Part shown: piece by piece, positions 40,518-43,536 of the stretch
Layout of the letters: the number at the start of each line of letters is the position of its first letter
How positions within the stretch are numbered: position 1 is the stretch's first letter
Assembly: GCA_902605865.1 (NCBI GenBank)
Contig: CACLEJ010000005.1
Coordinates: 1 to 64,000 of the forward strand
Length of the DNA: 64,000 nt
Origin: an uncultured Pelagibacteraceae bacterium
GTDB lineage: Bacteria; Pseudomonadota; Alphaproteobacteria; Pelagibacterales; Pelagibacteraceae
Reading direction: 5' to 3'
Notes under the pieces: generated by a model
Databases searched by the model: none
The model's input: the letters and a program-made list of their open reading frames with translations, nothing else
Told to the model about the DNA's origin: nothing
Program-made: the position numbers and the translations under genes

Positions 40518-41194
40518 TTTATTCCACCAAAATTTCTTCTAGTACGTTTGAATTTTGAAATTATTTTTCTAAAATCATTTTTGTTAAAATCAGGCCATAA
40601 TTTATCAATAAAAAAAATTTCTGAATAAGATGCTTGCCATAATAAAAAATTACTTAATCTATATCTATTCCCAGTTCTTATTAATATTTCTGGATCTGGA
40701 ATATCATTAGTGTATAGATTTTTTGAAATATTTTTTTCGTTAATTGGTATTGATAAGTTGATTATTTTTTTTATAGAATTAATTATTTCTTCTTTTGATC
40801 CATAATTTAATGCAATATTTATTTGAATTTTTTTGTTATTTTTTGTTTTTTTTTCCGCATTAAATAGTTTTTTTTTAAGTGAATTTGGAAACTTATTAAT
40901 ATTACCTATAACATTTAGTTTAATTTTTTTTTTAAAAAGTTTATCCAGTTGTTGGTCGATGTATTTTTCAAGCAAATAAATTAGAAAATCTATTTCTTTT
41001 TTTGGTCTTTTCCAATTTTCAGTTGAAAATGTGTATAGTGTTAAATATTTAATATTATTAGAAATTGATTCTTCTATTATTTTTTCAACAACTTTTACTC
41101 CAGCTGTATGACCATAATTTCTTGATTTTTTCTTTTTTAAACCCCATCTTCCGTTACCATCCATAATAATGGCGACATGTTTTGGTAAACTCAT
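40514..41194 (-). CDS. uppS: Undecaprenyl diphosphate synthase
   Basis: Adds eight isopentenyl units to farnesyl diphosphate to make the C55 carrier for peptidoglycan and LPS. The active site is visible as HVAIIMDGNGRWG at the N terminus, with LTLYTFSTENWKRP and a late PDPEILIRTGNRYRLSNFLLWQ. The length of 226 aa is slightly short for the family. It overlaps frr by four bases and feeds the same carrier pathway that ispDF and dxr supply. Confidence 0.96.
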   Translation of the reverse strand: MSLPKHVAIIMDGNGRWGLKKKKSRNYGHTAGVKVVEKIIEESISNNIKYLTLYTFSTENWKRPKKEIDFLIYLLEKYIDQQLDKLFKKKIKLNVIGNINKFPNSLKKKLFNAEKKTKNNKKIQINIALNYGSKEEIINSIKKIINLSIPINEKNISKNLYTNDIPDPEILIRTGNRYRLSNFLLWQASYSEIFFIDKLWPDFNKNDFRKIISKFKRTRRNFGGIK

Positions 41195-41742
41195 ATAGTC
41201 ATTATTTCATTTTCTTTTGTAATAACTCTCTCATCTATAACTTTTATTTGCTTATCGGTATAGTTCTGGATAATTTTTTCATTTTTTTTTAGATCGTCTT
41301 CTGAAATTTCTTTATCTTTGAGTAATTTTTTTAATTCATCATTTGCTTCTCTTCTAATATTTCTAATTGATATTTTGCATTTTTCTCCCATTGATTTAAT
41401 AATTTTTTTTATCTCAGTTCTTCTTTCTTCGCTAAGGTCTGGTACTGGTAATCTTATTAATTGGCCATCAATTTGAGGGTTAAGTCCTAATTCTGATTTC
41501 TTAATTGCCGAATCAATTAATGAGACATTTGTGGTATCCCATACTTGAATATTGATTGTTCTTGGTTCTGGCGTTGTAATGCTTCCTAATTGATTTATTG
41601 GCATTTTTTGTCCATAAACATCCACTTTTACAATATCCAACATGTTGGCATTTGCTCTGCCTGTTCTTAATGAGCTTAATTCACTTTGAAAAACTTCATA
41701 AGTTTTTGACATTTTATTGTTATATTTTGCCTCCTCAAACAT
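41191..41742 (-). CDS. frr: Ribosome recycling factor
   Basis: Splits post-termination ribosomes together with EF-G. This 183-aa protein has the family-typical SSLRTGRANANMLDIVKVDVYG, PINQLGSITTPEPRT and PPL-equivalent LIRLPVPDLSEERR, then a long helical C-terminal half. It overlaps tsf by one base. In most bacteria pyrH lies between tsf and frr; here there is no room for it. Confidence 0.97.
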   Translation of the reverse strand: MFEEAKYNNKMSKTYEVFQSELSSLRTGRANANMLDIVKVDVYGQKMPINQLGSITTPEPRTINIQVWDTTNVSLIDSAIKKSELGLNPQIDGQLIRLPVPDLSEERRTEIKKIIKSMGEKCKISIRNIRREANDELKKLLKDKEISEDDLKKNEKIIQNYTDKQIKVIDERVITKENEIMTI

Positions 41743-42593
41743 TACTCACCTATTTTTAGCCTAATAAAATTATTAATATGTAAATTAGAAATTTCTAAGT
41801 TTTTTATAACATCCTTAACCTTCATTTTTGGCTCCATTACCCAATCCTGCGTCATCAAACTATTTTCGTCTTTAAATTTATTAATTTTACCTAAACTAAT
41901 TTTCTTTGCTATATCCTCTGTTTTGCCTAAATTTTTTAATTCTTCCTCAATTAAATTAACCTCTTTATTTATTATTTCTCTATCAATCTGATCTGCATTT
42001 AACGCTATAGGATTTAATGCTGCTATATGCATTGATAATTGTTTTCCAAATGTATTAATTTTATCAGATTTCTCATTAGTATTCAAAGATACTATTACAA
42101 TTAATTTTGATACATTATCTTTAATTACTGAATGTTGATAAGCAAAATTTCTTGAATTTTCATGAGCTAAAGTCTTTGCTCTCCCAATTGTTATTTTTTC
42201 TCCAATTTTTGCTATTAAGGCTACAAGATTTTCATCAACAGTTTTATTATTCTTCATCTTAGATTTTTTTAAATCATCGATATTTGAAGAGTGATGATTA
42301 TTTAGTTCACTTAATTCTTTAACAAACTCAATAAAATCCTCGTTTTTTGCAACGAAATCAGTTTCACAATTTACTTCAATTAATGACATTTTTTTCTCAT
42401 CCCCTGAAGTAACTATAACTCCCTCTGATGCATTTCTAGACATTTTTTTTGAAGCCTTAGCTATTCCTTTTACTCTCAAGATTTCAGCTGCCTTGTCTAA
42501 ATCACCATTTGACTCTTTTAATGCGGCATTACAATCTTTAAAGCCTGCACCTGTGGATTTTCTTAATTGTTTTACTTTTTCTATATCGCTCAT
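41742..42593 (-). CDS. tsf: Elongation factor Ts
   Basis: Nucleotide exchange factor for EF-Tu. The UBA-like N terminus has [19 protein letters not shown], which contacts EF-Tu, and the core has [14 protein letters not shown]. The C-terminal LMTQDW and VKDVI segments complete the dimer domain. The length is 283 aa. It follows rpsB after 28 bases and is probably co-transcribed and co-controlled with it, as in E. coli. Confidence 0.97.
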
Positions 42594-42621: not shown

Positions 42622-43410
42622 TTAATTGAGTTTTTTTTCTATTTTTGTTTCTTCAGATTTTTCGGGGTTTAAAGTCTCAATCTTTAAATCTTTAGTATCT
42701 TTATCACTGACAGTGTCCTGTGGTGCTTCTTTTTTAGCATTAAGAATTGTTTCTTTTAAAAGTGAACAATACAAATCAATAGACCTTCTTGCATCATCAT
42801 TTCCTGGAATGGGAAAATCAATACCATCCGGATTAGAATTTGTATCTAAAATTGCAACTATTGGAATACCCAGTTTAACTGACTCTTTAATTGCTAAAGA
42901 TTCATAATTTGTATCAATTATGAATACTAGATCGGGTATTTTTTTCATTGATGATATTCCACCAAGTGATCTTTGTAATTTATCTCTTTGACCACTCATT
43001 TTTAGCAATTCCTTTTTAGTAAAGCCTCTATTCTCTGATTTTAAATCAGATTCTATTTTATCAAGTTTTTTTATTGAGTTAGATATTGTTCCCCAATTTG
43101 TAAGCATACCTCCTAACCATCTATAATTAACAAAATATTGATCCGTTTCATTTGCAAGTTCTGCTATTGCTTCTGATGCTTGTTTTTTAGTTGATATAAA
43201 TAATATTTTGCCACCTGATGAGATTGTTGAATAGACTTTTTCTAAGGCTATTTTAGTTAACTCAAGTGTTTGTGTTAAATCTATTATATGAATAGAGTCT
43301 CTTTTTCCAAAAATAAACTTCTTCATTTTTGGATTCCATCTTAAAGTTTTGTGGCCAAGATGAACGCCAGCTTCTAATAATTGTTCTATTGTTAGGTTTG
43401 GTATTTTCAT
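42622..43410 (-). CDS. rpsB: Ribosomal protein S2
   Basis: Protein of the 30S subunit. The family opening [30 protein letters not shown] and the later [20 protein letters not shown] and IPVVAILDTN-like stretch are plain. The ORF track starts at a GTG (43434); I choose the ATG at 43410 because the protein aligns from there and GGGA lies about nine bases ahead. That gives 262 aa. The C-terminal tail is acidic and Lys-rich, with low complexity. A candidate regulatory leader lies immediately upstream. Confidence 0.96.
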
Positions 43411-43480
43411 ATTTTTTCCCGGTTGTGCCACCACAATTACTGCCTAAAAAGGACCGGAGGTATAAAACCAGAAATTGTGT
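43411..43480 (-). promoter_or_regulatory. Candidate structured 5' leader of rpsB (pseudoknot covering the Shine-Dalgarno)
   Basis: On the minus strand CACAATT (43479-43473) can pair with AATTGTG (43438-43432). TCCGGT (43458-43453) in the enclosed loop can pair with ACCGGG (43423-43418) just before the start, making a pseudoknot that covers the GGG of the Shine-Dalgarno. A competing hairpin, TTGTG-GTGG-CACAA (43436-43423), uses the same bases, so two states are possible. This is by-eye folding. S2-controlled leaders of rpsB are established in E. coli; the extension to this sequence is inference. Confidence 0.55.
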
Positions 43481-43506
43481 GCGTATTAATTTACGGAACT
43501 ATTTAC

Positions 43507-43536
43507 AAAAAAAAGAGAAAAAAACAAGTTTTTTTT
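43507..43536 (-). terminator. Weak candidate terminator after dnaE
   Basis: Starting in the dnaE stop codon, a run of A residues, a CTTG tetraloop and a run of T residues can form a 7-bp A-T stem, followed by CTC and eight T residues. The stem has no GC pairs, so it would be feeble, but its place between dnaE and rpsB fits a boundary between two transcription units. Confidence 0.35.

Follow-up and report, generated by a model that had tools for sequence, protein, structure and literature searches.

The question raised by this locus is what the 124 bases in front of rpsB are for. The window, i.e., the whole analysed stretch of 64,000 nucleotides, belongs to a Pelagibacteraceae (SAR11) genome of 1.24 Mb that is 94% complete. 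On its minus strand, dnaE (ending at 43535) is followed by the 124-base spacer, rpsB and tsf. Same-strand gaps in the window have a median of -1, and 79% of them are 20 bases or less, which bears out the remark in a preliminary description of this DNA that intergenic spacing is tight elsewhere. The 73 bases next to rpsB (43483-43411, minus strand) have a G+C content of 44%, against 28% for the window, and sequence comparison strongly supports that they are a structured, pseudoknotted cis-regulatory leader of this gene. The genes concerned are:

42622 to 43410, minus strand: rpsB, encoding ribosomal protein S2, with its ATG start at 43410 (from the list of open reading frames).
41742 to 42593, minus strand: tsf, which comes second in the operon and encodes EF-Ts; identified by its translated sequence.

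The longest reading frame would start rpsB at GTG 43434; this was ruled out by an in-frame stop before ATG 43410 in the nearest relative. Three leaders of one SAR11 genus (L062, L063, L072) are followed by TTG at the position of the ATG. Further along the strand, pyrH (UMP kinase) is usually found between tsf and frr. It is absent from the tsf-frr junction in the window (41191-42593), and likewise from L003, L009, L017, L026, L027, L029, and L030. In 58 Pelagibacteraceae genomes the pyrH_bact cut-off is reached by no protein; the weak matches fall in AA-kinase frames some 350-425 aa long, which likely encode aspartokinase and glutamate 5-kinase. There is a cmk gene, scoring 136 bits and so barely above its cut-off, and at a guess it might supply the missing UMP kinase step.

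Divided into its structural segments, the leader reads CGC-A-CACAAUU-UCU-GGU-UUUAU-ACC-U-CCGGU-CCU-UUUU-AGG-CAGU-AAUUGUG-GUG-G-CACA-ACCGG-GAAAAAAU-AUG, and the following elements are recognised in it:

43473 to 43483, minus strand: 5' strand of helix P1, CGC-A-CACAATT, with a bulged A at 43480; covaries with the 3' strand.
43429 to 43438, minus strand: 3' strand of P1, AAUUGUG-GUG, after which comes an invariant G (43428); covaries with the 5' strand.
43459 to 43469, minus strand: hairpin P2, GGU (43469-43467) with ACC (43461-43459); pair types change within SAR11.
43443 to 43452, minus strand: hairpin P3, CCU (43452-43450) with AGG (43445-43443); short, and different in relatives.
43453 to 43457, minus strand: 5' arm of the pseudoknot, CCGGU, at the P2/P3 junction; outside SAR11 both arms change together so that the pairing is kept.
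43419 to 43423, minus strand: 3' arm of the pseudoknot, ACCGG, 8 nt from the start codon and so at the position of a Shine-Dalgarno sequence; placed by comparison of leaders.

The inner helix of P1, CACAATT (43479-43473) with AATTGTG (43438-43432), has 7 bp and had been noticed earlier; beyond the bulged A it is extended by CGC (43483-43481) pairing with GUG (43431-43429), giving 10 bp in total. The pseudoknot had been described as six pairs, TCCGGT with ACCGGG. These do form here, as five base pairs between CCGGT (43457-43453) and ACCGG (43423-43419) plus a U43458.G43418 wobble, but the sixth pair fails in 60 of 107 SAR11 leaders. All three complementarities of the preliminary description are thus present, although they do not make up the whole structure, since P2 and P3 had been missed.

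Taken alone, the sequence gives a folding z-score of -0.3, and in dinucleotide shuffles a 7-bp helix is found in 17% of cases, or in 4.7% if it must also be crossed by a helix of at least 6 pairs. Folded on its own, the sequence has a minimum-energy structure, UUUCUGGUU with AACCGGGAA, that was rejected since by inspection it is incompatible with other SAR11 genera. P1, P2, the pseudoknot and the conserved position are instead established by comparison of sequences, the single sequence being barely above chance.

A search of 147 Pelagibacteraceae genomes yielded 115 rpsB upstream regions, and the leader is present before every one of the 115 rpsB genes found. The 32 genomes with no rpsB match are all less than 90% complete or more than 5% contaminated; one match, lying at the end of a contig, starts within the gene, and two come from the same genome. 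The leader occurs once per genome in the SAR11 genomes searched. Of 98 genomes in the order, 89 have a match at E <=0.001 to a model built from the SAR11 leaders (R1); in the source genome this model gives a single match of 84.5 bits, the next best having 13.6.

In a MAFFT alignment of 108 distinct leaders that was not fitted to the structure (A1), two-sided changes are seen at six of ten P1 pairs and three of four P2 pairs. The alignment contains 199 cells with such changes, against 88 (sd 8.5) when shuffled and at most 77 in slid versions. The number of pairs showing a two-sided change is ten, a count equalled in 87 of 500 shuffles, so that it is the cells and the score, and not the pair count, that carry the evidence. 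P2 displays the pair types UA, GC, CG, and AU at one position and GC, AU, and GU at another. In relatives P3 is longer and different, for instance CUGC:GCAG or CCAC:GUGG in a listing of best hairpins, and MAFFT misaligns it between genera.

A tree-aware test, a home-made approximation of R-scape and not R-scape itself, was applied to a 39-column core drawn from the leaders of SAR11 and further Alphaproteobacteria, with 123 distinct rows. The pattern did not place five sequences, which had been left out of the core, and one of them (L182) was re-added by hand. APC-corrected G statistics were compared with 300 sets in which the substitutions of each column had been re-dealt over the FastTree branches. 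The top eight of the 741 column pairs all belong to P1, six of them with E <=0.07; the 5' anchor of the core was chosen in part for how it pairs with the 3' strand, a bias in favour of P1 from which A1 is free. The compensatory changes across SAR11 that the preliminary description had proposed to look for are accordingly found in P1 and P2, with the pseudoknot nearly invariant within the group.

P1, the bulged A and a GGNGG sequence are the most constant parts of the leaders. The opposed pair beside the bulge (43482/43430) is mostly non-Watson-Crick and apparently changes in step (G.U, G.A, A.A, A.C). In 67 non-SAR11 alphaproteobacterial leaders U4 is found with C or U and never with A (Fisher p 2e-5, uncorrected for relatedness), and in the tree-aware test the pair comes seventh of 741, with an E of about 0.5. 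It is possibly a protein contact. Leaders L112, L113, and L116, from one SAR11 genus, lack the C after the bulged A and have CGCAGAGGAAA with UUUCCUCGGUGG, so the bulge region has been rebuilt in that genus.

The pseudoknot pairing CCGGU:ACCGG is invariant or nearly so within the Pelagibacteraceae, some of the unpaired cells in the alignment being alignment shifts, and covariation is therefore untestable inside the family. Outside it the arms have been re-paired as CUGGU:ACCAG, UCGGU:ACCGA, CGGCU:AGCCG, CGGGU:ACCCG, UGGGU:ACCCA, and AUUGU:ACAAU, and the pairing in Escherichia coli is GGGGU:ACCCC. On the alphaproteobacterial tree, alignment pair 35-80 of the pseudoknot changes from CG to UA on two branches. 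The linker before the 3' arm is mostly four bases long in the wider set, where 34 of the 52 leaders with a recognisable P1 have a perfect 5-bp pseudoknot at a linker of 4 or 5, against a mean of 8.2 and a maximum of 17 in shuffles, these counts being best-match searches uncorrected for relatedness.

The leader is the already known rpsB motif in its SAR11 form. This motif was described in 2009 from Cand. Pelagibacter ubique with P1, P2, P3, and a pseudoknot between J2-3 and a 3' extension (Meyer et al., PMC2704228), and it is the structured Pelagibacter leader to which the preliminary description had alluded. Cand. P. ubique has a P2 of 3 bp, and gammaproteobacterial leaders were also placed in the motif (PMC2704228). 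The intergenic region before rpsB of strain HTCC 1062 was given as 873155-873283 (PMC2704228), and in a genome that is kin to the source genome (G026) rpsB starts at 873284, which fits these coordinates. The gene, the genus (by genome kinship), the position, P1, P2, P3, and the pseudoknot are the same. The short P2 and minimal P3 of Pelagibacter are found here as 3 bp and 2-3 bp, and the pseudoknot between J2-3 and the 3' extension is present and covaries outside SAR11.

An Rfam search, one of the checks suggested beforehand, matched RF01815 (rpsB) over its full length with 33.2 bits (E 4e-5 in 300 bases) at a relaxed threshold, the cut-off being 40, and the leader lies directly before rpsB, as members of RF01815 do. 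It differs from the recognised members in that the source leader and all SAR11 genomes searched score below the cut-off: none of 147 SAR11 genomes passes it, against 28 of 114 genomes of the class. The founding P. ubique leader (G026) also falls below 40 bits, with 33.3, and the cut-off is therefore too strict here. The threshold thus hides the rpsB motif in the very lineage of its discovery.

The E. coli leader t44 (tff, RF00127) has the same P1 with a bulged A, GUGGAGG, four-base linker and pseudoknot register, whereas it has a longer distal helix, a separate Shine-Dalgarno sequence about 15 nt after the pseudoknot and an Rfam family of its own, and is missed by RF01815. R1 matches it weakly (14.8 bits, E 0.036), and a DNA search of E. 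coli with the SAR11 leader gave no match, as expected at such a distance. From their sequences we infer that the SAR11 and E. coli rpsB leaders are homologous, and RF01815 and RF00127 appear to be parts of a single homologous family of leaders. Rfam gives both the type 'Gene; sRNA' despite their location in the cis leader of rpsB.

A transcription start downstream of 43458 would speak against such a leader, as was pointed out in advance. A conserved promoter-like signal is instead found upstream of it:

43523 to 43528, minus strand: -35-like CTTGTT of a putative promoter; CTTG/TTG is kept before the leader across SAR11 genera.
43500 to 43505, minus strand: -10-like TAAATA of the putative promoter; a weak consensus match in the source genome.

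The two elements were placed by eye, and the best pick of the script is a slightly different pair. A pair of CTTG and an A/T-rich element upstream of the leaders has a mean score of 9.78, against 8.38 (sd 0.13) in shuffles, the related sequences being non-independent. A promoter consensus scan of the window alone found nothing. Transcription is predicted to start near 43492.

In 105 of 115 SAR11 leaders, 6-9 nt separate the 3' arm of the pseudoknot from the start codon, and in 109 of 115 no Shine-Dalgarno tetramer follows the arm. Among 95 leaders from other Proteobacteria, arm and start are a median of 17 nt apart, and 84 of these leaders have a separate Shine-Dalgarno sequence; it is absent in the other 11, and overlap of the arm with this site is thus not unique to SAR11. 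All 20 leaders of a sister family in the same order have ACCGGAG, where GGAG lies at Shine-Dalgarno distance and overlaps the arm. The 16S 3' end of the source genome retains CCUCC. However, Shine-Dalgarno use looks low in the source genome (9 of 51 open reading frames, with naive starts), which weakens the argument for a hidden ribosome-binding site. The searched text of Meyer et al. (2009; PMC2704228) makes no mention of the overlap, and a pseudoknot arm lying on the ribosome-binding site in SAR11 would be a modest, testable addition to the known motif.

In E. coli, excess S2 represses rpsB-tsf and S1 is needed for this (review, PMC10931766), in agreement with what the preliminary description had stated about S2 control in that organism. 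By analogy, the SAR11 leader too very probably allows S2 to repress its own synthesis, S2 binding in SAR11 being what we infer from E. coli. An S1-like gene is found in the source genome (418 bits over the full length, below the family cut-off of 577). The reading we favour, at a probability of roughly three in four, is that the leader is a cis-acting RNA operator of rpsB-tsf that responds to S2, and in which locking of the pseudoknot hides the ribosome-binding site. Transcription probably begins a little upstream of P1, and P1 with its 10 bp and one bulged A closes a junction carrying the short P2 and P3. CCGGU at the P2/P3 junction pairs with ACCGG directly before the start codon. S2 in excess over 30S subunits would then bind the fold (in E. 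coli together with S1) and lock the pseudoknot. With its arm at the Shine-Dalgarno position, this would hide the ribosome-binding site directly, S2 translation would fall, and the output of EF-Ts would fall too via coupling. The pseudoknot leader of the S4/alpha operon offers a likeness of working only (PMC10931766); protein, gene and fold differ, and no homology is claimed.

In this order the arm occupies the place at which the ribosome has to dock, so a locked pseudoknot would block initiation. S2 operator and ribosome-binding site may be fused in this order, the arm being itself the site that pairs with 16S rRNA, and occlusion by S2 would be direct and simpler than in E. coli; this part is put forward tentatively, at somewhat less than an even chance. 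The same S2-regulated leader could instead follow the E. coli route, with S2 (and S1) acting on P1 and the bulge and the overlap arising only from genome shrinkage, a serious contender although short of even odds. In E. coli the ribosome-binding site is reported to lie outside the S2 operator, the repression mechanism is described as unclear, and deletion of the bulge far upstream removes control (review, PMC10931766), so the hiding of the site in SAR11 may be incidental. The constancy of P1, the bulged A and GGNGG agrees with this route, as do the requirement for the bulge in E. coli (PMC10931766) and the tendency of SAR11 RNAs to be short, whereas the narrow spacing from pseudoknot to start in SAR11 and the retention of the overlapping GGAG in the sister family argue against it.

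A response of the leader to an input other than S2, such as EF-Ts, a small molecule or S1 by itself, is improbable, as is a role as translation enhancer. High-affinity binding of S1 to pseudoknots has been reported (PMC10931766), but the homologous E. coli leader answers to S2 (PMC10931766) and the motif stays before rpsB.

The preliminary description had further proposed a two-state switch between P1 and an alternative hairpin:

43423 to 43436, minus strand: alternative hairpin UUGUG-GUGG-CACAA; present here, not conserved.

The complementarity of TTGTG (43436-43432) and CACAA (43427-43423) is real, but it does not hold up as a conserved switch. It is complete (G.U allowed) in 9 of 115 leaders, all from the same genus as the source, and is missing from most SAR11 genera; pairing over all leaders is 51.9%, against 52.3% in shuffles, and no covariation between the two strands was found across the 115 leaders. 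Such a switch is therefore highly unlikely, and the regulated event is more likely the formation or locking of the pseudoknot. Two other candidates were also rejected. The RNAalifold alternative CCNCCG:UGGNGG has no two-sided change, and the CC before CCGG is by inspection lost outside SAR11. The junction CCUCC was considered as an anti-Shine-Dalgarno decoy, but other SAR11 genera have CUACC, CACC, or CGCC in its place. Chance complementarity in an AT-rich spacer, which would be in line with the folding z-score and the shuffles containing similar crossing helices, is excluded for practical purposes by conservation and covariation across Proteobacteria.

In E. coli the operator through which S2 represses its own operon reportedly leaves out the ribosome-binding site (PMC10931766). 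The SAR11 leader, a natural minimal version of 73 bases with the pseudoknot placed over this site, would be a handy test case for the S2 mechanism.
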